A stretch of 49,067 bases of DNA from a virus. The notes beneath the pieces were generated by a model. The model was not told the DNA's origin, searched no databases, and saw only the letters and a list, made by a program, of their open reading frames with translations. Shown here piece by piece: positions 5,523 through 21,947 of this stretch. The stretch's first letter is position 1. Every line of letters starts with the position of its first letter. The DNA is taken from IMG/VR virus record IMGVR_UViG_3300013132_000074, positions 1 to 49,067 of that record. One strand, written 5' to 3'. A program made the translations under genes and the position numbers.

Positions 5523-5650
5523 CATATTTCGCACTCCGTATATTTACGGGAACTAATGCGCAAGTGTACACCCAGGAATACAATTATCTCTCATGTGAAG
5601 CAATCCGTTTTATTCCTTTCTAACGAGTTGTACATTAACGAAAGTTAGAA

Positions 5651-7012: not shown

Positions 7013-7049
7013 ATCACAAGCGATTATTGGACAATTCCACGTGATCACC

Positions 7050-7058: not shown

Positions 7059-7105
7059 GACGGGAAGTAGCTCTTCCCTTCACAACAATCCCGGGAGTAT
7101 GAATC

Positions 7106-8572
7106 ATGGCATTAGTAGGACACATATCTGGCAGTAGCCAGTCTAATTCAGTCATCGGCGTTTCTGGATCAGTAATCATCGCCAACAGGTCGTCTGCGTT
7201 GTTCCCGGCATTGCCCGGAACCGACGTCTCGTTCTTCGTCAGCGGCTCGGCTGCCTCTGACATGGCTCTCTTCGGCGGCGGTCTCGTCAGCTCAGGCAGC
7301 CTCACAGTCAAGAACGCTTCAGGCGGAAACTCCTTCACGGTCGCGTCTGCCACAGGCAACACGGTCGTTCAAGGCACACTTCAGTCGGTCGGCGCGTTCA
7401 CAGCAACAGGTGGACTCACGGCCACGTCGATCACAGGCTCGATCACGAAGCTTGCTGGCGACGGCGGCGACTTCCTCCGTGCAGGCAGCAACATCACGCT
7501 CACCACAGGATCTCTCGGTGAGGTCACAATCGCTGCATCTGCAGGTGGAACACCTGGCGGTTCCGACACTCAAGTTCAGTTCAACAACGACGGAGCTTTT
7601 GCTGGTGACGCCGATCTCACGTACAACTCGACGTCCAACACACTCACAGGTGTCACAGGTTCTTTCTACCGCGTTGTGGCAACTGATGAAGTGAGAGCAA
7701 ACGGCGGAAGCGTCACAACGACTCAGACGACCTTCAATCTCGTCAACACCACAGCGACCACACTCAACGTCGGCGGAGCTGCCACTGCCATCACCATGGG
7801 CGATGTCACATCGGCCACAACGACCATCAGAGGTGGAACTCTCGTCGGCAACCTCACGACTCAGAACCTCTTCAACACAACAGCGACCACTCTCAATATC
7901 GGTGGCGCAGCGACGACAGTTGAGATCGGTGCGGCAACAGGAACAACTTCGGTCAACAATGCACTTACTGTTGATGGAAACGTCACGCTCGGTGATGCAT
8001 CTGGAGACACTGTAACAGTGAACGGTACCACAACTTTCGCAGGTGCAGCTGTCACAACGACACTCGCGGGAAGCGGATCGATCGCAGGAACTCTTACAGT
8101 CGCCGGATCAACGACACTCAACGGCGCCGTCACTGTCGGCGATGCGTCAGCTGACACAGTCACGGTGAACGGTACCACGACCTTCGCAGGTGCAGCCGTC
8201 ACAACAACTCTTGCAGGAAGCGGATCAATTGCAGGAGCACTTACGGTCGGCGGCGACACCACTCTCAACGGCAACACCACTCTTGGTAATGACATCTCCG
8301 ACACTGTCACCTTCACGGCACGTTCTGCATCGAACTTCCTGCCTTCCGCTGACGTTACTTACGACCTTGGATCTTCAGCACGCCGTTGGGCAAACATCTA
8401 CACCGGTGACTTGCATCTCAAGAACGAACGCGGCGACTATACCCTCATTGAGGAACCGGACTTCCTGACGATCCGCTTCAACGCCACAGGCAAGCGCTAC
8501 AAGTTCATGCTCGAGGCAGTCCCCGAGCTTGACGAAGAGCTCGGAAACTTCTCATCCGGACCAAAGGGCTGA
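7106..8572 (+). CDS. Tail-fibre protein with tandem 49-residue repeats
   Basis: 488 residues starting MALVGHISGSSQSNSVIGVS. The front half has 'GSITKLAGDGGDFLRAGSNI' and 'SDTQVQFNNDGAFAGDADLT' shaft repeats shared with the fibre at 3040. Residues about 205-400 are Thr-rich pseudo-repeats ('TTATTLN(V/I)GGAAT'), including two almost identical 49-residue units. The C-terminus ('LGSSARRWANIYTGDLHLKN ... GKRYKF ... LGNFSSGPKG') is paralogous to the fibre at 5651. The ATG at 7106 follows CGGGAG. A trimeric beta-helical shaft with a conserved tip or attachment module is likely. Confidence 0.75.
   Translation: MALVGHISGSSQSNSVIGVSGSVIIANRSSALFPALPGTDVSFFVSGSAASDMALFGGGLVSSGSLTVKNASGGNSFTVASATGNTVVQGTLQSVGAFTATGGLTATSITGSITKLAGDGGDFLRAGSNITLTTGSLGEVTIAASAGGTPGGSDTQVQFNNDGAFAGDADLTYNSTSNTLTGVTGSFYRVVATDEVRANGGSVTTTQTTFNLVNTTATTLNVGGAATAITMGDVTSATTTIRGGTLVGNLTTQNLFNTTATTLNIGGAATTVEIGAATGTTSVNNALTVDGNVTLGDASGDTVTVNGTTTFAGAAVTTTLAGSGSIAGTLTVAGSTTLNGAVTVGDASADTVTVNGTTTFAGAAVTTTLAGSGSIAGALTVGGDTTLNGNTTLGNDISDTVTFTARSASNFLPSADVTYDLGSSARRWANIYTGDLHLKNERGDYTLIEEPDFLTIRFNATGKRYKFMLEAVPELDEELGNFSSGPKG
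8012..8095 (+). repeat. Intragenic tandem repeat, copy 1 (147-nt period)
   Basis: Encodes 'VTVNGTTTFAGAAVTTTLAG' plus 'SGSIAG'. The same peptide is encoded again exactly 147 nt (49 codons) downstream, with mostly synonymous differences. This is internal expansion of the fibre shaft. Confidence 0.85.
8159..8242 (+). repeat. Intragenic tandem repeat, copy 2 (147-nt period)
   Basis: Second copy of the shaft unit at 8012-8095. The protein is essentially unchanged while codons differ (for example ACAACT against ACGACC), so the duplication is not brand new or is under protein-level selection. Confidence 0.85.
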
Positions 8573-8580
8573 TACTTATA
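8572..8580 (+). promoter_or_regulatory. Candidate late-promoter motif ATACTTATA
   Basis: ATACTTATA overlaps the stop codon of the upstream fibre gene and lies 21 nt before the GTG at 8602. It fits the recurring AT[A/T/C][C/G]TTA motif. The spacing matches other copies in the window. Confidence 0.4.
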
Positions 8581-8601
8581 CGCTGAGGAGAGTGGACTGC
8601 T

Positions 8602-10032
8602 GTGCCAATAATAACGAGCAACATATCCAGTTATAACAACACACCCATTGGAATATCTGGAAGCATCGCGTTCGCAAACACACAGCAGTCCAACTCCGAC
8701 ACAGTATTCTTCGTATCGGGATCGGACTCGTCACGATCAGTCTTCGGTGGCACTCTCTTGGTGTCTGGAAGTCTGGTCGTGTCGGGTTCGATGTTTTTTG
8801 GAGACGACGTCAATCAAGACTCTCTACAGGTGAGAGCAGGGTCGCTCTTCAGCGGTAACGTCGGCATAGGATCCACGACGACTTCGACTAGACTTCTCGT
8901 CTCAGGATCGTCTACACCTTCAAACTCCACTCTCGTCGTTCGTGAGGGTGTGACTTCTCCCACAGGAGGCGCAGATGTCCTCGACGTGCAAAACTCGTCA
9001 GGAACCAGTCTCTTTGTCGTAAGCGGCAGCGGATTCGTCGGAATTGGAACGACAAACACTGTGACAGCTAACAAGCTTTCAGTGTTCGGAGCCACATCAA
9101 CGACCACATTCGGAGGTCACCTCTTACTGTCGTCTGATTCAGCTTCTTCAGCAATAGACAATGGTGGTCAGTTAAACTTTCAGATGTACGACGGCACCTC
9201 TTTGAGAGGAGCTGCTCTGATAAAAGGCGCCGAGGAGAACGGTACAAGCGGCAACTATGGAACATACCTCTCCTTCGGAACACGTGCTAACGGCGACTCA
9301 GTTCTCACAGAGCGACTCAGGATCGACTCTACGGGAAGCGTAGGCGTCGGTCTCACATCTCCTTCCGCGAGACTCTTCGTCACAGGATCGTCTTCTACTT
9401 CACAGCCTGCACTCATTGTTCAAGCAGGAACTACGAACCAAGTCGGAGGAACAAAAGTCTTTCAAGTACTCAAGAGTGACGGCACAGGAATCTTTCACGT
9501 CTCAGGCAGCGGTGACGTCACAGTCGACAACGGCAACATCGTCATAGGAACGGCGGGAAAAGGGATAGATTTCAGCTCCACAGCAAATGCTCCCTCAGGA
9601 ACGCTTGGTCAAGAAATCCTAGATGACTATGAGGAAGGGTCGTGGACACCAGGCACGACTGTCGGCGGCGGCGGCACGATCACTTCTACACGTTCCGGAT
9701 ATTACACCAAGATAGGAAGAGTGGTCCACGTAAAATTCTTCGTCGAGGCTTCCGCAGTCTCCGGAACGAGGACCACATTGACTATAACGGGACTACCCTT
9801 TCAAGTGGACGTGACATACACAAACGGGTGGGTAGAATGCTATCTATTGAACAACACCGGCGGTCTTTCTGACGACTTCTCACATGGCATGGTCTGGACC
9901 AATGCGACGAGCAATTCTTTGACGTTCGACATTTATGAGACTACTTCTGGTGCACCTATAACCAGTCCTGCTTCTTTCATAGTTGCGGGCACACTCATAT
10001 CGGGACACTTGACATATTTCACAAATCAGTGA
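8602..10032 (+). CDS. Tail-fibre protein with 'YEEGSWTP' C-terminal domain
   Basis: 476 residues from a GTG start preceded by GAGGAGAG at 8584-8591. The N-terminus resembles the fibre at 7106 ('ISGSIAFANTQQSNSD', 'SVFGGTLLVSGSL'). The middle has 'VGIGSTTTSTRLLVSGSSTP' and 'RLRIDSTGSVGVGLTSPSAR' shaft turns. The C-terminal 140 residues begin 'DDYEEGSWTPGTTVGGGGT' and continue 'SGYYTKIGRVVHVKFFV', a domain widespread at the end of phage fibres and also present in the short protein at 30518. Probable receptor-binding fibre. No intramolecular chaperone (S74-type) is visible. Confidence 0.75.
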   Translation: MPIITSNISSYNNTPIGISGSIAFANTQQSNSDTVFFVSGSDSSRSVFGGTLLVSGSLVVSGSMFFGDDVNQDSLQVRAGSLFSGNVGIGSTTTSTRLLVSGSSTPSNSTLVVREGVTSPTGGADVLDVQNSSGTSLFVVSGSGFVGIGTTNTVTANKLSVFGATSTTTFGGHLLLSSDSASSAIDNGGQLNFQMYDGTSLRGAALIKGAEENGTSGNYGTYLSFGTRANGDSVLTERLRIDSTGSVGVGLTSPSARLFVTGSSSTSQPALIVQAGTTNQVGGTKVFQVLKSDGTGIFHVSGSGDVTVDNGNIVIGTAGKGIDFSSTANAPSGTLGQEILDDYEEGSWTPGTTVGGGGTITSTRSGYYTKIGRVVHVKFFVEASAVSGTRTTLTITGLPFQVDVTYTNGWVECYLLNNTGGLSDDFSHGMVWTNATSNSLTFDIYETTSGAPITSPASFIVAGTLISGHLTYFTNQ

Positions 10033-10038
10033 GGGAAA

Positions 10039-10320
10039 ATGAACATAGAGACAAGACACGTCATAGACAAGGTAGAGATAGACGAGAATACCAAGACGAT
10101 TGGAGTGAGGACTCGCATACAACAGTGGGTTGTCTCCTCTGAGGGTGAGATTCTCGTTCAGGACAATGCAGGTTTCCACAGAGTCTCCCTAAATCCCGGA
10201 GATTGGTCCGGTGCAGAGTCTCACGGCGTCAGAAATTACGCAGATCTAGTGTGGACGCAGAGTGCCATAGATGCCTGGAATGTAATACAAGCGCAGAACT
10301 CTTCGCGTCGACTCTTCTAA
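10039..10320 (+). CDS. Small conserved-looking protein of unknown function
   Basis: 93 residues starting MNIETRHVIDKVEIDENTKT. It appears to be a mixed alpha/beta globular protein with 'QDNAGFHRVSLNPGDWSG' and a Trp-rich C-terminal helix. I do not recognise the family. It lies 6 nt after a long fibre, preceded by GAGGGAAA, so it is probably translated from the same message. Its stop overlaps by 4 nt the stop of the minus-strand phospholipase gene, marking the convergent junction with the lectin island. Confidence 0.55.
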   Translation: MNIETRHVIDKVEIDENTKTIGVRTRIQQWVVSSEGEILVQDNAGFHRVSLNPGDWSGAESHGVRNYADLVWTQSAIDAWNVIQAQNSSRRLF

Positions 10321-10997
10321 CGACTGGTTCTGTACCTGAGCGAAAACTTCTCTCCGTCCTTCAAGCCCTCCTCGTACATCTCCATCGCAACAGCGGTGGA
10401 AGGTATCTCGATCGTGTACTTGTCGAAGAGCGACAGGTGGGATGGGCGGATGTCGGAACCGAAGGACAGGGGCCACGCTGAGATTCGCAACGTCTCGTGG
10501 TGTTTCGACGGTTGGTTGCAGAGGACACCGGCGTCGAGGTGCAGGATCCTGTTCTTGAGGCGGACCATGTCGTTCATGAAAGGGATGGAGACGGACGACT
10601 TCAGCGCCTCGAACATGTCACCCTTCGATGCGAATTCGTCCTGCATCACGTAGCTCATCTTGAAGGGAAAGAGGGAGACTTTGGTGTAGCAGATGGTGAG
10701 TCGACCGGTCGTGTGGATGTCCTTCGGGGTGGCGTCGTAGATGTAGGCCGTCGACCTCTCCACCACCTCCCGCTTCTTCACGGACCGCGCTGCGGCGGCC
10801 GCGTTTAATGCCTCTAAAAACGCCTCATAGGCATCACCCCGAGTTAACAGGAATATTGCTGCGCCACCCCCGGCTGACGCCGTGATGTACTCTGTCGTGT
10901 TCAGGTCGATCAAGCCGTTCTCGGAAAGGCGCTGGAGGACTCCGAAGTACCAGAACACCTTCCAACCGCAACCGCTGAGAGAGACGCGTGTGAACAT
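10317..10997 (-). CDS. Patatin-like phospholipase
   Basis: 226 residues. The N-terminus contains 'SLSGCGWKVFWYFGVLQRL', the glycine-rich oxyanion loop of patatin/PNPLA enzymes. The nucleophile elbow is 'ITASAGGGAA' with Ser41; it reads T-x-S-x-G instead of the usual G-x-S-x-G. The catalytic Asp is Asp155 in 'HLDAGVLCNQP', equivalent to the D-G-[GA] dyad motif. 'RLTICYTKVSLFP' and 'ALKSSVSIPFM' match other conserved family segments. The family hydrolyses acyl ester bonds of membrane lipids. It is the last gene of the minus-strand lectin operon, 44 nt after the tenth LamG gene. No signal peptide is seen, so lysis, host-membrane modification and virion entry are all open. Confidence 0.85.
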   Translation of the reverse strand: MFTRVSLSGCGWKVFWYFGVLQRLSENGLIDLNTTEYITASAGGGAAIFLLTRGDAYEAFLEALNAAAAARSVKKREVVERSTAYIYDATPKDIHTTGRLTICYTKVSLFPFKMSYVMQDEFASKGDMFEALKSSVSIPFMNDMVRLKNRILHLDAGVLCNQPSKHHETLRISAWPLSFGSDIRPSHLSLFDKYTIEIPSTAVAMEMYEEGLKDGEKFSLRYRTSR

Positions 10998-11041
10998 GAC
11001 GTCTTAAATATTACGATGTGGTGTCCATATTTGTTTCGGAT

Positions 11042-11743
11042 TTAGACGCCAAACCTTCCTCGTAGCGCCGTGAAGTTCTGGAGTATCTCTGCAGCGCTTA
11101 ACGCCCTGTTGTATATCGATACTTGATAGATAGAACCTCCGAAGTAGGCAGCTGGGCTTCCATTTTGTTGCCTTGCCCCGACTAGCAACGACACATTTGA
11201 CTGGTCCCATCCGATCGCTCCTGTCGAAGTGGAAGACGGGTCAAGCACACCGTTGATGTAGAGCCTCTGTGTGGATCCGTTGTACACTCCGCAGAGGTTA
11301 TATGTCAAACCAGCTAACAAGCTGGTGGTGGACGTAGTGCTGTAAGGTGATACTTCTCTCTCAATGACTGCCTTGTTGTTTTTTATAGAGAGAATGTAAT
11401 TACCCAGCACTCCGCCGTTGTATCGTCCCAATATGGATTGCTCTGACAAACTGACACTGCTAGGTCTAACCCAGGCGCACAGAGTGAACGGATTGTTGCT
11501 GCTGAAATAGTACAGAGAGTTCGTACCAATGGTCGCGTACTGGTTCGTTCCGTTGAGAAACAATCCTCCTCCCGCTGCCTCGCTGAAGGTCGGAGTCCCT
11601 GACAGGGTCGCCACCGTGCCGTTGTTGTTCAGGTCGACCCAGGACGTCCCTGTCCCTCTGTAGCTGTTCTTGTCTGCGGCATCGAGAAGCAGGATCAGGC
11701 TAGTGTCTCGAACTATCTTTCCGTTTCCAAACCGATAAGCCAT
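11042..11743 (-). CDS. LamG/concanavalin A-like lectin-domain protein 10 of 10
   Basis: 233 residues and essentially one jelly-roll domain. The N-terminal signature is 'LILLLDAADKNSYRGTGTSW' and the C-terminal signature 'IYQVSIYNRALSAAEILQNF', ending RGRFGV. These are the first and last strands of the LamG (Laminin_G_3) fold, with 'GTNQYATIG' and 'TLCAWVRP' between. Such domains bind carbohydrate or protein and are common on phage surfaces. It is the most 3' lectin of the array and is followed by the phospholipase gene. Confidence 0.78.
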   Translation of the reverse strand: MAYRFGNGKIVRDTSLILLLDAADKNSYRGTGTSWVDLNNNGTVATLSGTPTFSEAAGGGLFLNGTNQYATIGTNSLYYFSSNNPFTLCAWVRPSSVSLSEQSILGRYNGGVLGNYILSIKNNKAVIEREVSPYSTTSTTSLLAGLTYNLCGVYNGSTQRLYINGVLDPSSTSTGAIGWDQSNVSLLVGARQQNGSPAAYFGGSIYQVSIYNRALSAAEILQNFTALRGRFGV

Positions 11744-11744
11744 G

Positions 11745-12431
11745 TCAGACTCCGAACCTCGCGCGAATTGAATTGTAGTTCTGTGAGACTTCTGCTGCGG
11801 TGAGACCGCGATTGTACATCTTCACCACGCTTATCTTGCCATTCAACCAATAGGGTGTGCTTATTCCACCGATCGAGATTCCGTTCTGCCCCATGGTGGA
11901 GTTGGTGATGCTTCCCTGCACCGCTTGTGATGCACCGTTGATGTAGAGGGAGTAGGTGGAAGAGGTTCGAGACGCAACAATGTTGAACCACCTGCTCGTC
12001 GACGGTGACCACGAGCAGAAAACGGATCCACCTCCCGAGTGTTTCGCGAAGTACAATCCGCTTGAGAAATAAGCGAACCACCACTTGTCTGCAGTTGATC
12101 CTGCGACGGGATCGCTTTGAAGGAAAGGCGTTGGAACAGATCCTCCAGAGTTGATCGAGTTCATCCACACCCACGTCTCTATCGTGAAATCTCCTGTTCC
12201 GAATGAGTACGTGGAGTCGTTCGGCATGTAAACGTAGGTATTGAGCCCCGCGAAGTTCATGGTCCCGCCGTAATCACTGCTGAAAGTTGGACCGTTTTGA
12301 TATGAACCTGCGCTTCCCTTCACGAGATCATACCAGGCCGTTCCGCTGCCAGGGTGACTCGCGATGTCTGCTGCATCCAGTGCCAACACGAGACCGCTCT
12401 TGACTATTTGTGCGCCTCCGCCGATTCCCAT
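11745..12431 (-). CDS. LamG/concanavalin A-like lectin-domain protein 9 of 10
   Basis: 228 residues. Signatures are 'GLVLALDAADIASHPGSGTA', 'DFTIETWVWMNS', 'WFNIVASRTSSTYSLYINGA' and 'ISVVKMYNRGLTAAEVSQNY', ending RARFGV. This is a single-domain lectin-like fold. It overlaps the upstream lectin gene by 1 nt at 12431 and is separated from the next by one base. There is no signal peptide or membrane helix. Ligand unknown. Confidence 0.78.
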   Translation of the reverse strand: MGIGGGAQIVKSGLVLALDAADIASHPGSGTAWYDLVKGSAGSYQNGPTFSSDYGGTMNFAGLNTYVYMPNDSTYSFGTGDFTIETWVWMNSINSGGSVPTPFLQSDPVAGSTADKWWFAYFSSGLYFAKHSGGGSVFCSWSPSTSRWFNIVASRTSSTYSLYINGASQAVQGSITNSTMGQNGISIGGISTPYWLNGKISVVKMYNRGLTAAEVSQNYNSIRARFGV

Positions 12432-13156
12432 TACCGTCCATACCTTGCTTTGGTCTGATTGAAGTGGTCAACAAGTTGTTGTTGTGTCAACATGACGCCG
12501 TTGTAGACGAGCACCTGTCCTATCGACCCGCCCCAGTGATCACCACCCGGGTGTGACCTTTGACCTATGAAGTTGACTGAAGCTCCGCCCGTCGTGTAGT
12601 ACAGTGCGTTGTAATACCCGCCGCTTCCAACTTCCACACCGTCGAGGTAGAGTCTTGCAAATCTAGATCCGCCGTCCTGCACCACGGCAACATTGTACCA
12701 TCTGTTCGCTTGTATGAGATTGTAACTCGACGTGATGTTACTCGCAGTCGCAGTTCCGTCCCATATTGCCCAGGCCGTTAAGTATAGACGGCTTCCGTCC
12801 ACTCCCAGTGCGACTCCTAAGCCTCTACTGTCTTGTGTAGCTGTCCATCCTCCACCATATATCCAGCCTGTGCTTGACGTGTCACTCTTGTTCACCCATG
12901 TGGTCATTGTGAAGCTACCGTTCAAGTTGACGACAGAGACTTGACCGTACTGACTAGATCCGTTGAACGTGAAACTTCCTGCGCCTGTAGGAAGTCTGAC
13001 GAACTGAGGCCCATTCACAAGAGAACAGTTGTTGCCGTCGCTAGACAGATTTGTCCACGTTGTACCAGACCCACCGTAGCTTTCTGGTATTGTGGCATCG
13101 AAGAACAGGGTGTAGCCTGATGTTGGCTTGAAATTGCTTCCTACTTGATACGCCAT
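12431..13156 (-). CDS. LamG-like lectin-domain protein 8 of 10 (IPESYGGSG subfamily)
   Basis: 241 residues. With the next copy upstream it forms a distinct subfamily: 'SGYTLFFDATIPESYGGSGT' replaces the usual LYLDAGNRxSYPGSG, 'NNCSLVNGPQF' replaces NGTLTNSP, and the C-terminus is 'DHFNQTKARYGR' instead of RGRFGV. The core 'SFTMTTWVNKSD ... WYNVAVVQDGGSRFARLYLD' is LamG-like. It is coupled to its neighbours by 1-nt overlaps. Carbohydrate or receptor binding is inferred. Confidence 0.76.
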   Translation of the reverse strand: MAYQVGSNFKPTSGYTLFFDATIPESYGGSGTTWTNLSSDGNNCSLVNGPQFVRLPTGAGSFTFNGSSQYGQVSVVNLNGSFTMTTWVNKSDTSSTGWIYGGGWTATQDSRGLGVALGVDGSRLYLTAWAIWDGTATASNITSSYNLIQANRWYNVAVVQDGGSRFARLYLDGVEVGSGGYYNALYYTTGGASVNFIGQRSHPGGDHWGGSIGQVLVYNGVMLTQQQLVDHFNQTKARYGR

Positions 13157-13875
13157 TAACGACCGAACCTTCCCTTGGTCTGATTGTAATTATCGAGGAC
13201 TTGACCGCTCGACAGAACTACACCGTTGTAGATGAGAACCATCCCCAAAGATCCGCCAAAGTAGCGGTAATCACCTGGGTCTCCATGGAAGTCTGGTGAC
13301 TCGTATGCGCTCCTTCCGATGAATGAAGTCGCCGCAGCACCGAAGTTGTCGTAACCTGGATTGAAGACTCCGCTTCCTTGCAGCAGTCCATTGACGTAAA
13401 CGTATCCGACTCCCGAAGACTTTACGGCGCACAAGTGGTGCCAACGACTCGTGTCTATCACACCAGCAGCAACTTCTTTTCTGTTGCCCCATCCCCACCC
13501 GCTGTTTAACGTGGGCGTAAGTCCCGTGACCCCGAAGTTGACTGCATTGATTGCGCTCTGCCAGCCTGCGCCTATGAAGTAGCCTTCGGATGACGAGTTG
13601 TTCTTCTTGACCCACGCAATTAGCGTGAAGTTTCCTCCGAGACCCAGCTCTCCAATCGATCCGTATTGACTGCTGCCGTTAAAGTTCAGGAAGCCTGCTC
13701 CCGCAGGAGTGATTAAATAGGTAGGACCGTTCACTAGGCCGCAGTTGTTGCCGTTGCCCGACAAGTTAGTCCAAGTGGACCCAGAACCTCCGTAACTCTC
13801 GGGTATCGTTCCGTCAAGAAATACGGAGTAACCCGGGACGAACTCCAGCTTTCTTCCACCTTGAGTTGCCATCAC
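13156..13875 (-). CDS. LamG-like lectin-domain protein 7 of 10 (IPESYGGSG subfamily)
   Basis: 239 residues, closest to copy 8: 'PGYSVFLDGTIPESYGGSGS', 'GNGNNCGLVNGP', 'NFTLIAWVKKNN', 'WHHLCAVKSSGVGYVYVNGL' and the ending 'NYNQTKGRFGR'. Copies 7 and 8 therefore arose from a duplication separate from the rest. It overlaps the upstream copy 6 by 4 nt (ATGA on the minus strand), implying coupled translation. A second Met follows the first directly, so the exact start could be either. Confidence 0.76.
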   Translation of the reverse strand: MMATQGGRKLEFVPGYSVFLDGTIPESYGGSGSTWTNLSGNGNNCGLVNGPTYLITPAGAGFLNFNGSSQYGSIGELGLGGNFTLIAWVKKNNSSSEGYFIGAGWQSAINAVNFGVTGLTPTLNSGWGWGNRKEVAAGVIDTSRWHHLCAVKSSGVGYVYVNGLLQGSGVFNPGYDNFGAAATSFIGRSAYESPDFHGDPGDYRYFGGSLGMVLIYNGVVLSSGQVLDNYNQTKGRFGR

Positions 13876-14612
13876 ACTCCAAACCTTCCTCTGAGAGATT
13901 CGTAGTTTTGTGTGACTTCAGTCTGCGTGAGACCTCGTCCTATGTACGTCCTGAAGCTGCTGACTCTTGCAGGCAACGGTCCATAATAACCTGCAAATAC
14001 GGTGTTCTGAGCGATTAGAGCAGACGTGGGTGCTGCTGTTATGCTGACGCCGCTCAAGACTGCACTAGTCCCCACTAGACTTCCATTGAGATAGCAGTTA
14101 GTAGTTCCTGACACTCTTGTTAGACATATGTTGTGCCAAGTCAGTGTAGGAATCGTTAGACTTGAGAAACTCGCTCCGACTCCTCCGCCCATCCTCTCGA
14201 ATCCGATCCTGGACGGGACAGATGTGCCGGTCCCAGAAGATTGAATGTACAAAGCTATTGTACCCGAAGCATTTCCTGTGCAAATATAACCCGTGTAATT
14301 TACAAAGCTTCCCAAGTAGCTGAGGTTGGAGATGAGATATAACCAAGTCTCTATCGCGAAGTCACTTGTACCCGACGGATACGCCGCCGGAGAGAATGTC
14401 GCGTAGTCGTCCAACTGATCAAACTGTATCGCTCCTCTTCCAAACCCATTTCCAGCGTCATAAGTGAAGTTGTTGGCGAGAGTGGCATTGTAACCGTTGC
14501 CACTGAGATCAGTCCAAATTGCTCCCGATCTCGGGTAACTGTTGTTATCACCGGCATCGAGGTTCATCGTTAGGCCGCTCTTTACAATTCGATAGCCAAC
14601 GCTGCCACCCAT
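13872..14612 (-). CDS. LamG/concanavalin A-like lectin-domain protein 6 of 10
   Basis: 246 residues, the longest in the array. Signatures are 'SGLTMNLDAGDNNSYPRSGA', 'DFAIETWLYLISNLSYLG', 'WHNICLTRVSGTTNCYLNGS' and 'VSSFRTYIGRGLTQTEVTQN', ending RGRFGV. The IYNRALSAAE motif is altered to TYIGRGLTQTE. Single domain without a signal peptide. It shares its first base with the stop codon of copy 5. Confidence 0.77.
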   Translation of the reverse strand: MGGSVGYRIVKSGLTMNLDAGDNNSYPRSGAIWTDLSGNGYNATLANNFTYDAGNGFGRGAIQFDQLDDYATFSPAAYPSGTSDFAIETWLYLISNLSYLGSFVNYTGYICTGNASGTIALYIQSSGTGTSVPSRIGFERMGGGVGASFSSLTIPTLTWHNICLTRVSGTTNCYLNGSLVGTSAVLSGVSITAAPTSALIAQNTVFAGYYGPLPARVSSFRTYIGRGLTQTEVTQNYESLRGRFGV

Positions 14613-14661
14613 CAGACCCTGAACCTTCCCCTCATCGCGTTGAAGTTTTGGAGGACTTCTG
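14610..14661 (-). repeat. 52-nt exact repeat at the 3' end of lectin gene 5
   Basis: Identical to 16030-16081. It covers the gene junction and the codons for the C-terminal VLQNFNAMRGRFRV segment. Flanking DNA differs, so the identity is local and fits recombination between paralogues. Confidence 0.9.
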
Positions 14662-15334
14662 ATGAAGTGAGTGATTTGTTATATACAATCGTGGAGAACA
14701 TTTTTCCGTTGAAATACGTACCACTAATTCCTGCAGTCCCTAACTGATTGGTGGTTTGAAGAAGCGTTACCGTGAACGAAGAGAAAGTTTGCGTCATTTC
14801 CAAGTTTCCATTCACGTAGATGCTGAAAACGTTTCCCGATCTGGTTGCAGCCACATTGTAAGGAACGTTCACGATTGGTGTTGTTGTTCCATACAGGAGT
14901 TGGCTTGAGTAAGCAGGGCTTGTTCTATCCCCCAACAGCATGCCAAACTTGTTGTTCGTTCCTGCAGAATCGTACCTTAAGCCAAACAAAAATCTTCCGT
15001 TTCCTGACCCTGCAGAGTATTGAGAAAACATGACATACTCATTACCTTGTGTACTTATGAGTGAAGATATTGACACCCATGAGGAGATGGTCCAGTCAGA
15101 AGTTGCTCCTAGCGCCGTTGAATCCAAATTTGCGTATTGCGTGCTTCCGTTAAAAGCAATCGATCCGCAGTTATCTTGACCGTATGTGGGACTGTTTACA
15201 AGAGTCCCTCTGAATCTACTGGCGCCAAGATCTCTCCAAGAATTTCCGCTCCCCGAGTAGCTCTCTCTATTCGCTGCATCGAGGTACAGCACTAGACCGC
15301 TTGTGACCAGCTTGGGCATGTGATGTTGTGCCAT
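14612..15334 (-). CDS. LamG/concanavalin A-like lectin-domain protein 5 of 10
   Basis: 240 residues: 'SGLVLYLDAANRESYSGSGN', 'DWTISSWVSISS', 'VPYNVAATRSGNVFSIYVNG' and 'FSTIVYNKSLTSSEVLQNFN', ending AMRGRFRV. The DNA encoding its C-terminus (14610-14661) is identical over 52 nt to the matching part of copy 3, evidence of recent duplication or gene conversion. It is joined to its neighbours by 1-nt overlaps. Confidence 0.78.
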   Translation of the reverse strand: MAQHHMPKLVTSGLVLYLDAANRESYSGSGNSWRDLGASRFRGTLVNSPTYGQDNCGSIAFNGSTQYANLDSTALGATSDWTISSWVSISSLISTQGNEYVMFSQYSAGSGNGRFLFGLRYDSAGTNNKFGMLLGDRTSPAYSSQLLYGTTTPIVNVPYNVAATRSGNVFSIYVNGNLEMTQTFSSFTVTLLQTTNQLGTAGISGTYFNGKMFSTIVYNKSLTSSEVLQNFNAMRGRFRV

Positions 15335-16032
15335 TATAGACCGTACCTTCCTCTCATCGCAACGTAGTTCCTCGATATCTCTGCGGCGCTGAGTGCGCGG
15401 TTGTGGATTATAAGTGTAGAAATTCTGCCTGTGTAAAAATCTGCACTGTTAAGAGATTGATTCCCGCCCAATCTTAGAGTTGCAGAAGAGTTAATACTCG
15501 GGCTCCTAACTGTACCAGAAGACGAAAGAGAATTTTGCACATAAAACAATTGTGATGTGCTGCTTCTCACACCAGACAACATGTACCAACCTTCAACGGG
15601 AACAGAATAACTAGTTACTGTTTCTGTTCCGTCGAAAGTTCTAAAGCTAACATTTCCTGTATTGTAGGAAATACCAACCCAGTGATAGTTTGGAGCGTAC
15701 GCTAGGAAATTACCAAAATAAACTATTGATTGACTTGCTGATGTTACTGTGGGATTAAGATAACACCAGCAACAGATTGTATAGTCAGAACTAGTATTTA
15801 AATTTGAAGTTGTAATGCTAGTGTTGACCCACGTGCTTGATCCGTTAGTAAATGTAAGATACCCCAAGTTTGATCCGCTATAAGACGGACTATTTGTAAG
15901 CGTTCCATTCCGACCATTCCCGCTCAAATCACTCCACGTTGTCCCGCTTCCTGGATAGCTCGCCCGGTTGCCTGCATCGAGGTACAACATGAGGCTGCTG
16001 TCGATCACCATCTTTGGGCCTGAGGATATCAT
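15334..16032 (-). CDS. LamG/concanavalin A-like lectin-domain protein 4 of 10
   Basis: 232 residues: 'SSLMLYLDAGNRASYPGSGT', 'SDLSGNGRNGTLTNSPSYSG', 'DYTICCWCYLNP' and 'ISTLIIHNRALSAAEISRNY', ending AMRGRYGL. The middle of the gene is visibly more AT-rich than its ends, suggesting that the ligand-facing core was exchanged independently of the conserved ends. One-nt overlaps on both sides. Confidence 0.78.
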   Translation of the reverse strand: MISSGPKMVIDSSLMLYLDAGNRASYPGSGTTWSDLSGNGRNGTLTNSPSYSGSNLGYLTFTNGSSTWVNTSITTSNLNTSSDYTICCWCYLNPTVTSASQSIVYFGNFLAYAPNYHWVGISYNTGNVSFRTFDGTETVTSYSVPVEGWYMLSGVRSSTSQLFYVQNSLSSSGTVRSPSINSSATLRLGGNQSLNSADFYTGRISTLIIHNRALSAAEISRNYVAMRGRYGL

Positions 16033-16081
16033 CAGACCCTGAACCTTCCCCTCATCGCGTTGAAGTTTTGGAGGACTTCTG
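16030..16081 (-). repeat. 52-nt exact repeat at the 3' end of lectin gene 3
   Basis: Partner of 14610-14661, identical over 52 nt, at the equivalent position of another lectin gene two copies away. Confidence 0.9.
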
Positions 16082-16736
16082 CGGCGCTGAGTGCCCGATT
16101 GTAGATCCGCACAGTAGATATTTGACCGTTGAAGTAAGGACTACTACCTTCACCAGTTCCGATACGCAAGGGAGCAGCTGCATTAGGTATTAGCGATGAG
16201 TTCGTTGCGCTTCCGAGGGAGGCACCGTTGGAGTAGAAAGTGAACGAGGTTCCGCTCTTCGTGATGGAGAAGTTGTACCACGTGGAGAGGGAGAGGGAAA
16301 CCGTGCTCGAGGGTTCTATCACAACGTTGGTGCTGGGAGCGTAGTTGATGTGAAAGATGGGTTTGCTCTTCGAGATATCGTATGAATATATCCACTTCGA
16401 GAAGTTACCTCCACCCTCATCGTGAGAGAGAAGAGCATCGCGTTCCCATGCGGACGGCCACGCACCGCTCCTGTTGAACCACACGTCCATCATGAACTCT
16501 GAGTTTGTCCAGTCGTTCGAGTCAGGGACCGTGACGTGACTCGTGTTTCCTCCGAACGATATTGCTCCTAGCGCTGATGTACTGAACGTGGGAGAGTTGG
16601 TCAGAGTCCCGTTGTTACCTCTGCCGCTCAAGTCCCTCCACGTTGTCCCGCTTCCTGCATAACTGTCCCTGTTTCCCGCATCGAGGTACAGGACCATCCC
16701 TGACGTCACGATCTTTGGATAGTATGAACTTGCCAT
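16032..16736 (-). CDS. LamG/concanavalin A-like lectin-domain protein 3 of 10
   Basis: 234 residues: 'SGMVLYLDAGNRDSYAGSGT', 'DLSGRGNNGTLTNSPTF', 'WYNFSITKSGTSFTFYSNGA' and 'ISTVRIYNRALSAAEVLQNF', ending AMRGRFRV. It is a canonical representative of the array. The N-terminal 'YYPKIVTSG' is shared with copies 2 and 5, perhaps an attachment segment common to the set. Ligand unknown. Confidence 0.8.
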   Translation of the reverse strand: MASSYYPKIVTSGMVLYLDAGNRDSYAGSGTTWRDLSGRGNNGTLTNSPTFSTSALGAISFGGNTSHVTVPDSNDWTNSEFMMDVWFNRSGAWPSAWERDALLSHDEGGGNFSKWIYSYDISKSKPIFHINYAPSTNVVIEPSSTVSLSLSTWYNFSITKSGTSFTFYSNGASLGSATNSSLIPNAAAPLRIGTGEGSSPYFNGQISTVRIYNRALSAAEVLQNFNAMRGRFRV

Positions 16737-17452
16737 CAGATGCCGAACCTTCCTCTCGTCGCGCTGAAGTTCTGTGAGACTTCTGCGGCGGTGAGAGCCC
16801 TGTTATATATCGTCACGTGTGAGACACGTCCGTTGAAGAATCTAGTTGCCAAAGAGAAACCCCTCCCAATGTACACGTTGTTCATGGACCCGATGAAACC
16901 TGTCGGAGCTCCCCCTGATCCCACACTTCGAACAGTTCCCGTTGATGATCCGTTGTAGTAGATGAAACTGTTGGATCCAACGTATGTGATCGTGCTGTTG
17001 TTCCACCTGTTTAACTGCATTTGACCTGAGGAATGACCGTAATACCTGTCATTGTTGTTCGTTATGTCGGAATAATTCCATCCGCCGCCACCAGAACCGT
17101 CTATTTCGAACCGGGGGCCAATGTTGCCTGTCGTGCCGTTGTAAGCGTAGTTGCAGTCTATGACATTCTGCCAGTTCGTGAAAGTAAGTGGGAAAAACCA
17201 CACAGACACCGTGAAGGTTGCGAAAGAACCTGGCAATGCTCCATGTACACTGATTGCGTCTACACCGTTGAAAGTTATCGATCCTAGACTGGCAATATTA
17301 TAAGTGGTTCCTCCACTCAACACACCGTTCTTACTGTTCAAACTCAAGTCATTCCACACAGTCCCGCTCCCAGGATAACTCTCTCTGTTACCCACGTCGA
17401 GACACAACGCTAAACCATCTGTGACAATTCTCGGGTAGTAAGCACCTGCCAT
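16736..17452 (-). CDS. LamG/concanavalin A-like lectin-domain protein 2 of 10
   Basis: 238 residues: 'DGLALCLDVGNRESYPGSGT', 'TFTVSVWFFPLTFTNWQN', 'NNSTITYVGSNSFIYYNGSS' and 'VSHVTIYNRALTAAEVSQNF', ending ATRGRFGI. A 37-nt gap separates it from copy 1, the only such gap inside the array. Single domain without signal peptide. Probably a virion-displayed or fibre-associated binding protein. Confidence 0.79.
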   Translation of the reverse strand: MAGAYYPRIVTDGLALCLDVGNRESYPGSGTVWNDLSLNSKNGVLSGGTTYNIASLGSITFNGVDAISVHGALPGSFATFTVSVWFFPLTFTNWQNVIDCNYAYNGTTGNIGPRFEIDGSGGGGWNYSDITNNNDRYYGHSSGQMQLNRWNNSTITYVGSNSFIYYNGSSTGTVRSVGSGGAPTGFIGSMNNVYIGRGFSLATRFFNGRVSHVTIYNRALTAAEVSQNFSATRGRFGI

Positions 17453-17489
17453 CAGCTCCTCGCTCTCTTTTGGCTTTCACCGTGTTGCA

Positions 17490-18164
17490 TCAGATTCCGA
17501 ACCTTCCCCTGTGAGCGCTGAAGTTCTGTGAGACTTCTGCTGCGGTGAGCGCCCTGTTGTACAGCTGAACTATAGATAGACCTCCCGTGAAGTACTCTGA
17601 TGCGCTTATTGCGCCTTTACCAAGTGTAAGAGTACCTTCAACGAATGTCCTCGTACTTGCAGCAGTGCCAAATACATCGCCATTTTTGTAGGCCGTAATT
17701 GTAGAACCATTGTATGTCATCGTCAAATTTATCCACTGGTTCGCTGAATACGGAATGCTAGACACAGTATCTCCCGAGACACCCCAGACCCCTACCGTCA
17801 CCCAGAAAGTTCCATTGTTTCTCTGTTGAATTGCATAGCCAACCGTCGAACTGTCAAAAGTCATGTTTGTCAACGGAGTCATGAAATTCCCAGACGTAGT
17901 TGGGTAACACCAAATGTTTGCCGTTATATTTTGCCCGGACACGCCCGGTGAAGTCACAGTACCGCTTTGCGTGGATCCATTGAAAGACAGATAGCCCAAG
18001 TTTCTCGTGTCGTAAGATGGAGCATTTACTAGAGAGGCATTTCTCGCATTGCTTGCCAAGTTTAACCAAGACGCGCCGCTTCCTGGGTAACTCTCCCTGT
18101 TCCCGGCATCGAGGCACAACACCATTCCTTCGGTGACTATTCTAGGTGAGAAGTGCTTGCCCAT
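17490..18164 (-). CDS. LamG/concanavalin A-like lectin-domain protein 1 of 10 (first in operon)
   Basis: 224 residues, the shortest of the set: 'EGMVLCLDAGNRESYPGSGA', 'NITANIWCYPTTSGNF', 'WINLTMTYNGSTITAYKNGD' and 'LSIVQLYNRALTAAEVSQNF', ending AHRGRFGI. It is the promoter-proximal gene of the minus-strand island. Its upstream region, shared with the divergent gene at 18255, is AT-rich and probably holds the operon promoter. Lectin-like fold inferred from signature strands; ligand unknown. Confidence 0.79.
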   Translation of the reverse strand: MGKHFSPRIVTEGMVLCLDAGNRESYPGSGASWLNLASNARNASLVNAPSYDTRNLGYLSFNGSTQSGTVTSPGVSGQNITANIWCYPTTSGNFMTPLTNMTFDSSTVGYAIQQRNNGTFWVTVGVWGVSGDTVSSIPYSANQWINLTMTYNGSTITAYKNGDVFGTAASTRTFVEGTLTLGKGAISASEYFTGGLSIVQLYNRALTAAEVSQNFSAHRGRFGI

Positions 18165-18254: not shown

Positions 18255-18458
18255 ATGGACAACGAATTGGTCGAGAAGCAGAACAAGGCATTGAACGTAC
18301 TGGTCGAGGCGGCGAGACTCGCTCAAGCCCGCGGCGCCTTCACGCTCGAGCAGGCATCACTCGTCGCCGAGGCGATCGCAGTGTTTAAGCAGCCTGAAGC
18401 ACAGTCGGGCACTCAGATCACCGACTCAGTGACTTCGTCTCCTCCGTCAGTCTTCTGA
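18255..18458 (+). CDS. Small helical protein of unknown function
   Basis: 67 residues from the ATG at 18255. An upstream in-frame start at 18153 would overlap the lectin start and lacks a ribosome binding site, while AGAGG at 18242-18246 serves this one. The sequence 'MDNELVEKQNKALNVLVEAA' continues through a predicted amphipathic helix ('FTLEQASLVAEAIAVFKQPE') to a polar tail. I do not recognise a family. It is a single gene between the divergent promoter region and a strong terminator, so it is probably transcribed alone. Confidence 0.55.
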   Translation: MDNELVEKQNKALNVLVEAARLAQARGAFTLEQASLVAEAIAVFKQPEAQSGTQITDSVTSSPPSVF

Positions 18459-18478: not shown

Positions 18479-18511
18479 GCGGAGGTTCTTGTGGGCCTCC
18501 GTTTTTCTTTT
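18479..18511 (+). terminator. Rho-independent terminator
   Basis: A perfect CGGAGG/CCTCCG stem (18480-18485 with 18496-18501), extendable by one G-T pair, is followed by TTTTTCTTTT. It ends the transcript of the 18255 gene and isolates the block starting at 18528. Confidence 0.8.
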
Positions 18512-18527
18512 AGGTTATAATTTTCAC

Positions 18528-19022
18528 ATGCCTACACAGCTTCTGCAGAACGTCAATTTTGGAAGATCGAAGTACGATGCAACAGGATCTCTTGGTGTCG
18601 GTTATTCTCTCTTGGGAACAGATGGGACCGTCGTTGAGTCAAGGACGACCACGGGAGTCTACCAGACCGCACCCGGTATATACGCTGCATATGTGTCTTT
18701 CCCAGACAATTTCAAGGGACAGATACTCTGGGACACCGGAGATCATTATTTTCTGACAGCTTCTTATGCCACCGAAGAGTACAACGGTTCTGCAGCTGTC
18801 ACGATAGATACAGCCAAGATCGATGAGATATACGACGTCGTCACGTCCATGACGGGCACTCTCAATTCAATCTACGACATACAGTTCGGTCGCTGGAGGA
18901 TAGTGAACAATCAGATGATCTTCTACAAAGACGACAACACGACCGAGGTTGTTCGTTTCGACCTCTTCGACGATGCCGGCAATCCAACGATGGATGCTGT
19001 CTTTGAGAGAGTCAAGGTCTGA
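18528..19022 (+). CDS. Conserved phage structural-type protein ('YDIQFGRWRIVNNQMIFYK')
   Basis: 164 residues from the ATG at 18528; the in-frame GTG at 18489 lies inside the terminator hairpin and is rejected. The first 100 residues are beta-rich ('VGYSLLGTDGTVV ... TAPGIYAAYVSFP'). The C-terminus 'YDIQFGRWRIVNNQMIFYKD' and 'LFDDAGNPTMDAVFERVKV' is a recognisable conserved end of small virion proteins in tail/neck gene blocks. Exact role unknown. It overlaps the next gene by one base. Confidence 0.6.
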   Translation: MPTQLLQNVNFGRSKYDATGSLGVGYSLLGTDGTVVESRTTTGVYQTAPGIYAAYVSFPDNFKGQILWDTGDHYFLTASYATEEYNGSAAVTIDTAKIDEIYDVVTSMTGTLNSIYDIQFGRWRIVNNQMIFYKDDNTTEVVRFDLFDDAGNPTMDAVFERVKV

Positions 19023-19381
19023 TGGGAAACAAGTTGGTGACTCGCGGCATGGGACCTGTCACAGGCGGCGTCCCAGGAAGAGCTGCGTTGATATCGCAAG
19101 GACTTGGAGGTTTCTTTGAGGAGGTCAAGCGACAAGCGATCCGCATCTATCGAGCGGGTCAGAGTGGCACGAAACGGGCACTTCAAGAACTCCAAGAGGT
19201 GATGGTCTGGGCCAAACTGATCAGAATAAATGACGAGAAACCTCCCATTCCTATCTCGGGTTCGATTAAGGTGAGAATATCCAAGACGTCCCAGATAGCA
19301 GCAGTTCTCATCAGTAGGGCCTCCGTGCGTGTCAGATCTGCGCTAGAAGACCTCAAGATCACGGTAAAGAGGATAAAGTGA
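19022..19381 (+). CDS. Small conserved phage protein, unknown function
   Basis: 119 residues beginning MGNKLVTRGMGPVTGGVPGR. The Gly-rich start is followed by a basic helix ('FFEEVKRQAIRIYRAGQS') and a C-terminal strand-helix region. Similar 'LVTRGxG' starts occur in small phage proteins that precede neck or head-tail genes. The start is coupled to the upstream stop (TGATG). Structural role inferred from context. Confidence 0.5.
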   Translation: MGNKLVTRGMGPVTGGVPGRAALISQGLGGFFEEVKRQAIRIYRAGQSGTKRALQELQEVMVWAKLIRINDEKPPIPISGSIKVRISKTSQIAAVLISRASVRVRSALEDLKITVKRIK

Positions 19382-19397
19382 GTGATATGTATCTGCG

Positions 19398-19982
19398 ATG
19401 GAACCGCTGACAGAAACGATACAATTAGACATCGAAGAGAGTAACGACCTCACGTTCAAAATCAAGATGGAGGGAACAGCAATGTCTCCCGCCAAGGTGA
19501 GACTCGTATGTGAGAACGAAGACTTCGCCTACATGTTCAACGGTTACGGCACCGGTGAGGACGAGGTGGTGCAGTTTACTCTCCCGAGGATGGACAAGAA
19601 GATCACCGAGGGTACGTACGACGCCCGTGTAGAGGTCCTTGTCGACAACCGCTACTTCGCTCCTCTTCAGTTCCAGATCAACTTCAAGAAGACTCTCTCT
19701 GTCGTAGCAGAGACGATACAGGTCGTACGAAAGGCCGTCAAACCTGAGGTCACTGTGACTGCAGCGCCAATATCTGTCATAAAGCCTGTTGCTGCTCCTC
19801 CACCCGCAGTTGCCACCATTAAATTTGAGCAGAAGCCTGTTGCCAAAGTCGCTTCTCCCGTCACTCCTCCTGAGCCTCAAAAGATTCAAGTGGAGTCTGC
19901 ACCACTGCCTGGTTCACTGAAGGATACTTTCCTCAAGAAGACCGCCCAGCCTGGATCACTCAAAGAAAAATTCAGCAAGTGA
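19398..19982 (+). CDS. Phage structural protein with beta domain, Pro/Ala linker and duplicated C-terminal peptide
   Basis: 194 residues. Residues 1-105 form a beta-sandwich-like domain ('AKVRLVCENEDFAYMFNGYG', 'ARVEVLVDNRYFAPLQFQIN'). Residues about 120-170 are a flexible Pro/Val/Ala linker. The end carries two copies of a short peptide, 'LPGSLKDTFLKK' and 'QPGSLKEKFSK', which look like tandem docking motifs. I recognise the first domain only as a phage virion-type protein. It lies just before the neck genes, so a head or neck assembly role is possible. Confidence 0.55.
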   Translation: MEPLTETIQLDIEESNDLTFKIKMEGTAMSPAKVRLVCENEDFAYMFNGYGTGEDEVVQFTLPRMDKKITEGTYDARVEVLVDNRYFAPLQFQINFKKTLSVVAETIQVVRKAVKPEVTVTAAPISVIKPVAAPPPAVATIKFEQKPVAKVASPVTPPEPQKIQVESAPLPGSLKDTFLKKTAQPGSLKEKFSK

Positions 19983-20088: not shown

Positions 20089-21264
20089 ATGGCCACGTTC
20101 GTTAACACAATAGCACCCACGCCATTTGGCTTTTTTGACGCTGACGCTGACTTTCAAGCAGAAGCAGATTCCATGGTCACTTACGTGAAGAGGAAGCTCG
20201 GTGACGACGTCCTCTCTGTCGAATTGACGAAGAAGCAGATCTGGTCTTGCCTTGAAGAAGCTGTCTGCGAATACTCTCGACAAGTCCATGAGACGAAGAT
20301 AGTTTCTGAATTGACGAACGTCCTTGGTGTATCTACATCGGAAGACTATACGAACAAGTATTCTCGTCAAACACTTGAATACTTGGTGAGAATGGCAGAG
20401 CCCTATGCGACTGAAGCTTACGTCGGAGGTTCTTTTAATTACACGTTAGGCTATTTTGATCTTGTCGGTGGAAAGCAGGACTACGACATCTATACAGACT
20501 TGAAAGACTTTGTATCAGGCTCGTCTGTATACGGTAATTTACCTGCCGGCAGCAAAGGCAAGCTTAAAGTCGTTGAGTTATTTCACATGGAACCTCTTGC
20601 TGCTCAACACTTTTTGTTAAATGCCTCTAACATAACGAACTTCATGGCGACGAACTTCAACTATGAGTCGTATGTTAATTCTTCAATCTTCTATGTTTTA
20701 CCCATCTTTGAAGACGTACTTCGCAGAGGAATGCTTGAGTCAGCCTTCAGAGTGAGAAGATCACACTACAGTTATGAGATAATGGGAAGCAAACTAAGGA
20801 TCTATCCTATTCCCATGACAGACTTGCAAACTGGTAAACTTTTTTGTAGGGTGTTACCTCCGCAGAATCCGCTCAATCCTTCAGCATTTTCTGATGATTC
20901 TATCGATGGCATCTCAGGTCCCCAGAATTTTCCACTTGGAAACATTCCGTTCGGTTCGATAAACCAGCCAGGTCGTCAGTGGATTAGACAGTATACACTC
21001 GCTCTGTGCCGTGAGATGTTAGGCCTCGTTCGATCAAAGTTTCAGAACATACCCGTTCCTAATGCAGATCTTCAGCTCAACGGCGAGTCGCTCGTTACTA
21101 CGGGACGTGAAGACAAGGATAAACTCCTCACACAGCTTAAGGAGTTTCTTGCAAACTTAACACATCAGAAGATGTTAGAATCCGACGCCGCCGCCGCCGA
21201 GTCCCTCAACAAGCAGTTGAAGTACGTTCCGATGCCTAAGGGCCACACCATCACGATAGGATGA
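20089..21264 (+). CDS. Neck / head-tail connector protein (T4 gp13-like)
   Basis: 391 residues, somewhat longer than T4 gp13 (about 309). The C-terminal part 'WIRQYTLALCREMLGLVRSK', then 'PVPNADLQLNGESLVTTG' and a Lys/Glu helical end, matches the conserved region of gp13-type neck proteins in T4-like phages. The N-terminus has 'TYVKRKLGDDVLSVELTKKQ', typical of connector/adaptor helices. It is directly followed by gp14-, gp15- and gp18-like genes, the T4 order. It should sit at the head-tail joint after DNA packaging. The gp13 assignment rests partly on synteny. Confidence 0.7.
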   Translation: MATFVNTIAPTPFGFFDADADFQAEADSMVTYVKRKLGDDVLSVELTKKQIWSCLEEAVCEYSRQVHETKIVSELTNVLGVSTSEDYTNKYSRQTLEYLVRMAEPYATEAYVGGSFNYTLGYFDLVGGKQDYDIYTDLKDFVSGSSVYGNLPAGSKGKLKVVELFHMEPLAAQHFLLNASNITNFMATNFNYESYVNSSIFYVLPIFEDVLRRGMLESAFRVRRSHYSYEIMGSKLRIYPIPMTDLQTGKLFCRVLPPQNPLNPSAFSDDSIDGISGPQNFPLGNIPFGSINQPGRQWIRQYTLALCREMLGLVRSKFQNIPVPNADLQLNGESLVTTGREDKDKLLTQLKEFLANLTHQKMLESDAAAAESLNKQLKYVPMPKGHTITIG

Positions 21265-21267
21265 TCC

Positions 21268-21936: not shown

Positions 21937-21947
21937 AGGGAAGTTAA

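Follow-up and report, generated by a model that had tools for sequence, protein, structure and literature searches.

The 49,067-base record IMGVR_UViG_3300013132_000074 of IMG/VR, which was analysed over its whole length and is called the window here, is from an uncultured T4-like myovirus, a bacterial virus, and carried at 11042-18164 an array of ten minus-strand open reading frames (ORFs), each encoding a single-domain LamG protein. The array probably encodes virion lectins that bind receptors and are expressed together, a set built up from cassettes that are swapped via their homologous ends. Fold, family, and locus together suggested both the location of these proteins on the virion and the binding of sugars. 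The genes were named G1 to G10 in the order of transcription:

17490-18164, minus strand: G1, single-domain LamG protein of 224 amino acids, the array's first gene (PF13385).
16736-17452, minus strand: G2, LamG protein of 238 amino acids; closest kin in phage contigs L313 (49%) and L224 (47%).
16032-16736, minus strand: G3, LamG protein of 234 amino acids (PF13385; AlphaFold model mb203cd71ec11).
15334-16032, minus strand: G4, LamG protein of 232 amino acids.
14612-15334, minus strand: G5, LamG protein of 240 amino acids; its 3' end shares 52 nucleotides (nt) with the end of G3.
13872-14612, minus strand: G6, LamG protein of 246 amino acids.
13156-13875, minus strand: G7, LamG protein of 239 amino acids with a GTG start; in a starred clade with G8.
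12431-13156, minus strand: G8, LamG protein of 241 amino acids; counterparts of 44-48% in L107, L120, and L097 (AlphaFold model m3f0f30fd9352).
11745-12431, minus strand: G9, LamG protein of 228 amino acids; orthologue in L110 72% identical, at another array position.
11042-11743, minus strand: G10, LamG protein of 233 amino acids, the array's last gene (PF13385, 91 bits).

All ten ORFs were complete, with no genes interposed. Seven of the nine junctions were overlaps (six of 1 nt and one of 4 nt), the other two being gaps of 1 nt and, between G1 and G2, of 37 nt; nine genes started at most 37 nt from the preceding stop. Purine-rich stretches resembling Shine-Dalgarno sequences were seen by eye at most junctions, within the last codons of the upstream gene, and may constrain these ends further. 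The close spacing and overlapping stop and start codons suggested that all ten products are made together, and a single virion or burst may then carry mixed specificities. One operon-like block would encode ten different complete LamG/concanavalin A-like proteins, among which amino acid identity was 22-44%. An earlier note on this DNA had described ten head-to-tail single-domain LamG genes of 224-246 codons on the opposite strand, mostly overlapping by 1-4 nt and with nothing between them, and the coordinates, lengths, and domain matches bear this out.

PF13385 (Laminin_G_3) was matched above its cut-off by all ten copies (45.1-92.7 bits against 27.6), and these were the only matches to this family in the 49-kb record, which held no LamG gene elsewhere. 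PHROG 8510 ('virion structural protein', head and packaging) was matched by nine copies, eight at the C-terminal part of the profile and G7 at an inner part, and not by G8. Fold modelling covered two copies: the AlphaFold models of G3 (predicted local distance difference test (pLDDT) 83.6, predicted template modelling score (pTM) 0.85) and of the divergent G8 (pLDDT 78.8, pTM 0.82) both showed a jelly-roll sandwich with a C-terminal helix, so that the structure prediction proposed in the earlier note returned the LamG jelly roll in each. The top solved neighbour of both was domain 4 of AbnA, which binds arabinan (for G3, Z 22.8 across 196 residues; for G8, Z 22.2 across 195). Among predicted viral structures, the best matches of G3 included single-domain Caudovirales proteins and proteins of S-PM2 and S-SKS1. 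Many fold matches in the PDB were toxin binding domains, which share the common jelly roll only and are uninformative on toxicity.

Among the ten paralogues, the ends were conserved and the centres variable, as had been described before, and two families of repeats were dispersed along the array:

11040-17592: gene-end repeats (repeat family D1), seven copies of a 105-nt unit at gene 3' ends, 62-78% alike to the reference, starting at 11040, 11743, 14610, 15332, 16030, 16734, and 17488.
14473-18118: gene-start repeats (repeat family D2), a 94-nt unit present six times, which encodes the N-terminal motif in G1-G6.

The 105-nt gene-end repeats are proposed here as the homology for recombination. 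The 52-nt identity between copies 3 and 5, already noticed earlier, was located at the 3' ends of G3 (16030-16081) and G5 (14610-14661), and the longest identical run in the coding alignment was 47 nt, compared with a maximum of 26 nt in 200 synonymous-codon shuffles. When identical codons were counted given the same amino acid and compared with shuffles, an excess among the ten was detected at the ends (residues 16-45, z 3.7; 201-224, z 4.0; 225-234, z 7.0) and not in the centre (46-90, z 1.1; 91-150, z -2.0; 151-200, z 1.4). Columns conserved in at least six of the ten copies, used as a guard against misalignment, gave z values of 3.1 (14-48), 0.6 (49-200), 3.4 (201-222), and 6.1 (223-234). 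In the eight arrays tested, residues 91-150 never rose above z 0.9, and z of at least 2 was found at 16-45 or 201-224 in all eight; the pattern was less clean in arrays other than that of the window, with an excess at 46-90 in L217, L204, L234, and L213, and at 151-200 in L186 and L204 (z 2.5 and 2.1, respectively). Between arrays, the excess was weak for the window against the syntenic L094 and L104, was found in the N-terminal part and centre for L186 against L204, and was absent between the window and the unrelated arrays L198 and L213. Because sharing at the DNA level was found at the ends and not in the centres, cassettes seem to be exchanged through homologous gene ends; homologous recombination between these conserved ends would move cassettes in, out, and around, and the phage's own UvsX-like recombinase is a candidate for this role. 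No reverse transcriptase (PF00078) was found in 15 records (the window and 14 related records, all fragments), which extends the same observation made earlier for the window.

The end motifs were not specific to stand-alone genes: they belong to a wider phage LamG subfamily and were also present in LamG domains inside large proteins. In a comparison using a profile built from the ten, with matches covering more than 80% of the profile and only identical ORFs removed, mean conservation over 24 motif columns was 0.85 in 36 LamG domains of ORFs of at least 400 amino acids versus 0.88; two of the 220 domains, in ORFs of 300-399 amino acids, were dropped. Four columns (R231, N213, R214, and W33) were 0.17-0.22 weaker in the embedded domains. 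Since the embedded domains carry the same end motifs at a similar frequency, the earlier proposal that the shared termini form a dedicated attachment site on the virion is not supported as stated. LamG domains were also found in tandem within single proteins (L244 8345-11956, L254, and L230), with five in the 1,203 amino acids of L244.

The position of the array within the structural block was that of the tail-fibre region, with fibre-like genes to its left and neck genes resembling gp13 and gp15 to its right:

3040-10032, plus strand: tail-fibre-like genes (659, 453, 488, and 476 amino acids) adjoining the array; their PHROG matches, some of them partial, were to tail fibre or virion structural families.
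10317-10997, minus strand: patatin-like gene of 226 amino acids, 3' of the array and on the same strand; left locus border in relatives (PF01734, 37 bits).
18255-18458, plus strand: small ORF of 67 amino acids between the divergent G1 and the gene at 18489, without a PHROG match.
18489-19982, plus strand: three genes (177, 119, and 194 amino acids), right locus border in most relatives and absent in L094, assigned by synteny.
20089-23210, plus strand: neck genes, namely a gp13-like head-tail adaptor of 391 amino acids (phrog_211, E 4.6e-12), a gene of 222 amino acids, and a weakly matching gp15-like sheath stabilizer of 420 amino acids (phrog_227, E 0.0018); this block was the synteny anchor.

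Complete syntenic arrays, read between the neck gene at 20089-21264 and the patatin gene, contained ten LamG genes in the window, six in L094, five in L116, two each in L097 and L120, and one in L107, which answers the question of copy number in related genomes raised in the earlier note. Arrays were cut by contig ends in L102, L103/L104/L106, L110, and L136, and in some relatives, such as L130 and L131, no LamG gene lay beside the neck genes in the stretch covered. L116 had three minus-strand copies and two plus-strand copies of 400-406 amino acids, and L094 had two more complete LamG ORFs and one partial ORF beyond the patatin gene, among the fibre genes. In L110, the copies nearest to the right border were an unassigned copy, the counterpart of G9 (72%), and a cut counterpart of G3 (75% over 97 residues); this different order of the G9 and G3 counterparts indicated that array order is not kept. 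A stretch of approximately 190 nt, 82% identical, lay between the array and the right border in L103 (1894-2087) and beside the patatin gene in L116 (2738-2925), and these different places indicated that part of the border changes position inside the locus.

Among the loci retrieved, siblings excluded, the best match of each of the ten copies lay outside the array, although G4 was only just closer to an outside match (119 versus 116 bits) and the best outside match of G3 was a cut copy. Even G7 and G8, the closest pair in the array, were each closer to the single copy of L107 than to each other. In a tree of 128 domains from the window, syntenic relatives, and distant phages, which was poorly resolved with 66 of 125 inner branches open, the ten window copies needed eight label changes, and the starred branches forced at least four. 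A starred clade united G7 and G8 with copies of L107, L120, and L097, and starred pairs across phages included G2 and L224 (97), L094_8638 and L091_1856 (100), and L198_10657 and L094_7970 (97). Whole-cassette acquisition fits these comparisons; recent tandem duplication is not supported by them, since no copy has its best match within the array. The set was probably assembled by gain and loss of whole cassettes, at least some of them shared with other phages, around an old member of the G7/G8 type. The expanding and recombining repertoire suggested earlier is thus borne out as to varying copy number and signs of recombination at gene ends, and not as to recent local duplication, which was not seen.

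Family scans detected head-to-tail single-domain LamG genes in many uncultured phages. The sample was biased, consisting of the best 80 loci per scan from two overlapping scans, with larger clusters likelier to be picked; 220 raw clusters merged at 70% identity gave 150 groups, from which we removed 33 that contained a long ORF and 17 for which every example was truncated. The remaining 100 independent complete clusters comprised 45 singles, 24 pairs, 28 triplets, no quartets, two clusters of five, and one of ten. The last was the window's own sibling and the largest of the 100, and 97 groups held one to three LamG genes; ten genes per array are therefore unusual among the viruses sampled. The direction of this ceiling of three held in 27 of 27 settings, in which continuation from three to four genes was 0.00-0.17 versus 0.42-0.80 from two to three, with Fisher p values between 4e-10 and 0.35. 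The ceiling was sensitive to dereplication, being weakest in the A2 sample at a 50% threshold; two clusters of four appeared when the allowed gap was relaxed to 350 nt, and the syntenic relatives of the window do not obey the ceiling. A same-strand ORF of at least 300 amino acids ended beside 22 of 28 triplets, nine of 24 pairs, and 11 of 45 singles. Nine upstream ORFs were scanned: in four (L186 6738, L252, L224, and L255), the leading PHROG matches were to tail fibre, tail spike, or virion structural families; in L186 12384, a match of this kind ranked behind an unknown family; and the other four gave no informative match. Members of triplets were exchangeable in position (29 independent triplets), and distinct positional roles for the first, second, and third genes were not found, the observed value being reached in 111 of 500 shuffles; 80 of 87 members had their best match in another record, as expected anyway from 84 outside and two inside candidates. 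L186 (4516-17028) carried three groups of three LamG genes, and the L179-L341 loci also included L204, L224, and L255.

Selection on the copies was estimated from the ratio of nonsynonymous to synonymous substitution rates (dN/dS) in four pairs of orthologues from this lineage, whose synonymous sites were close to saturation. In the mid-region, G9 and its L110 orthologue gave 0.15, and the three G8-type pairs from L107, L120, and L097 gave 0.06-0.07. At the level of sequence comparison, purifying selection was thus shown for the orthologous centres of the G9 pair and of the G8-type copies among the three relatives, and no hypervariable centres were found in these four pairs of the lineage. Pairs from other phages were looser (L204/L186, dN/dS 0.50 overall and 0.56 in the middle). 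The earlier note had named a fixed copy number together with purifying selection in the central loops as the pattern opposed to its proposal; the former was not found, since copy number varied, whereas the latter was found in the four pairs tested. The array was identical in two assemblies, the window and its sibling record, within a 21,173-bp match. Over the stretch 420-40415, differences between the two were confined to 426-583, 38698, and 39983, the dense differences at 426-583 lying at the left end, perhaps at an assembly or strain boundary. Other assembly pairs differed at one position in 9,768 bp (L094/L095) and one in approximately 1.8 kb (L103/L104).

These results bear on two alternatives. 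An antigenic-style cassette library, to which the array had been likened earlier, would use one copy at a time with the others as silent donors. The shared ends, variable centres, and 52-nt identity of two copies are features of such a library; however, ten intact ORFs with close or overlapping starts, the lack of another LamG gene in the record, the constrained orthologous centres, and near invariance between assemblies speak against it, and we regard this explanation as highly improbable. Neutral accumulation, by which copies build up through illegitimate recombination and few of them matter, draws on the copy number falling to one in L107, a single copy indicating that most copies are dispensable over evolution. 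On the other hand, none of the ten copies was broken, dN/dS was low in the lineage's orthologue pairs, and the sibling's array was the largest of the 100 independent clusters, which hints at selection for number; neutral accumulation appears distinctly unlikely. In the cassette exchange preferred here, the copies would be kept by purifying selection.

As to where the proteins act, the ten are most likely receptor-binding or surface-decoration subunits of the virion, working beside the neighbouring tail fibres. If they instead only coated the head or tail, where they would help the virion adhere to cell envelopes, mucilage, or particles but play no part at the fibre tip, transcription of the array apart from the fibres, its departure from the usual order of fibre and then LamG gene, and the head and packaging category of PHROG 8510 would be readily explained; however, the position of the array, with tail fibres on one side and neck genes on the other, and the parallels with phages Pan3 and S-PM2 favour the tail fibres, and such decoration is possible but rather unlikely. 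A non-virion role in the infected cell or at lysis, for example binding released polysaccharide or blocking rival phages, would suit the strand of the array and its adjoining patatin-like gene, whereas no signal peptide was obvious by eye in the G1-G10 translations and members of the family in cultured phages are annotated as structural proteins of the virion; we consider this role very unlikely.

Several observations weigh against the set of exchangeable receptor-binding lectins preferred here. The array and the fibres are on opposite strands here, and S-PM2, immuto, Pan3, and many distant contigs have the order of fibre and then LamG gene. G1-G10 are without the N-terminal module of the S-PM2 type. 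The Pan3 protein gp15 shares the fold only, with no Pfam match and an hhalign probability of 0.2, and was not among the 50 fold matches listed for the G8 model. No promoter above chance was found for the array. The UvsX-like gene is interrupted by an apparent group I intron, so that recombinase activity would need splicing. The N-terminal codon excess dropped to z 1.9 without G5, and that of the last ten residues could partly come from the ribosome-binding site of the next gene, an explanation which does not cover the excess at 201-224 and 16-45. The window copies were also slightly clustered in the tree, as few changes being reached in 10 of 500 label shuffles, which leaves room for some local homogenisation or old duplication.

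A bolder proposal, doubtful at present, is that up to ten lectins, interchangeable and drawn from a pool shared by unrelated phages, are displayed as a mixture on the virion. Ordinary members would be limited to three per fibre, perhaps as three different LamG subunits capping one three-fold tip, and this lineage would have escaped the limit via a separate opposite-strand operon, bet-hedging over host sugars. If the array is the exchangeable set preferred here, host recognition would be widened or hedged by a growing number of separate, constrained lectins exchanged as whole genes, in contrast to mutating one tip (by a diversity-generating retroelement) or swapping one fibre, and the breadth of host range would be countable from the genome by the number and kind of cassettes. 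The limit of three genes seen in most of the other sampled phages makes a structural prediction that is testable on cultured phages such as S-PM2 or immuto.

Outside the array, the T4-like gene content comprised, in addition to the tail-fibre-like and neck genes listed above, a UvsX-like ORF, two tail sheath genes, and genes for tube, hub, tape measure, and single-strand binding protein. The two sheath genes adjoined each other (23270-26329 and 26379-29480; 1,019 and 1,033 codons; approximately 34% alike) and were also paired in relatives. The UvsX-like ORF of 240 amino acids spanned the first half of its profile, and the gene (48115-49067) broke off after a TTTPGG motif. A match to the group I intron family RF00028 began at 48786 with 45.1 bits, under the gathering score of 50, and was cut by the window end. 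In the sibling contig L373 (1-2151), the UvsX insert held an ORF of 323 amino acids, nuclease-like by eye, with a RecA-like C-terminal frame beyond, and RF00028 had no match there at the gathering score. The patatin-like gene, with PF01734 above cut-off, was present between fibres and LamG array in seven of the ten records searched (the window, its sibling, and contigs of five relatives), and Ser41 and Asp155, which we take to be the Ser-Asp dyad, were invariant in all six aligned proteins; its product is perhaps a virion or lysis lipase. No promoters or terminators rose above chance, and a T4-late-like octamer had 16 matches against 10.2 expected, not clearly above chance. The photosystem family PF00124, a sign of cyanophages, was found in none of 13 records. 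Among LamG relatives in genome assemblies, which may be phage contigs, 22 of 29 were in bins with titles that we take to denote Bacteroidota.

Among the closest known systems was that of Synechococcus phage S-PM2 (NC_006820), in which a tail fibre of 3,338 amino acids (p091) is followed by p092-p094 (deposited as 'virion structural protein'), the small p095, gp13, gp14, and gp15. The neck-gene order is that of the window, and p092-p094 occupy the slot of its array between fibres and neck genes. LamG was matched above cut-off by p093 and p094, and the hhalign probability of p093 with a 13-sequence family profile was 99, while for p092 LamG was not matched, and its only match, a fibrinogen-like one, stayed under the cut-off. 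The S-PM2 genes differ in being three, not ten, and in lying on the fibre strand, whereas the array of the window is opposite to its fibres. They also share an N-terminal module of approximately 80 residues, whereas the window proteins start directly at the LamG N-terminal motif; this common module with different heads (L372 13517-16563) is an apparent interchangeable-head design. In Flavobacterium phage vB_FspM_immuto, with a tail sheath 38% identical to that of the window over part of its length, a putative tail-fibre-like gp052 is followed by the single-domain LamG proteins gp051 and gp050, deposited as 'structural protein', but there are two such genes, on the strand of the fibre-like gene. 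No basis for this name was found in the literature searched, the passages of PMC7077304 available to us having no mention of immuto. The tailspike gp15 of the Pseudanabaena phage Pan3 (PDB 9vyh) is a stand-alone jelly roll of 270 amino acids, encoded one base behind the tail spike gene, and its chain p was aligned with the G3 model (residues 1-233; Z 19.4, root-mean-square deviation 4.5, 222 residues). Pan3 differs in having one gene, with three chains of the gp15 sequence in 9vyh.

Laminin G3 or ConA-type lectin domains tied to tail fibres and virion components have already been described in jumbo phages (PMC7824862); the passages of this review available to us refer to one or more domains in certain phages, and to no arrays of separate genes, and searches of open-access titles and abstracts found no arrays of LamG genes in phages. 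The Streptomyces umbrella toxin bears a diversified set of lectins (UmbA) on one particle, for bet hedging on target surfaces, according to the passages available to us (PMC13274773). A set of lectins on one particle can, on this precedent, serve bet hedging, and the ten LamG proteins may do the same; however, the umbrella toxin is an analogy only, being in those passages a bacterial toxin particle whose solved lectin is a beta-propeller and not a phage LamG protein (PMC13274773).

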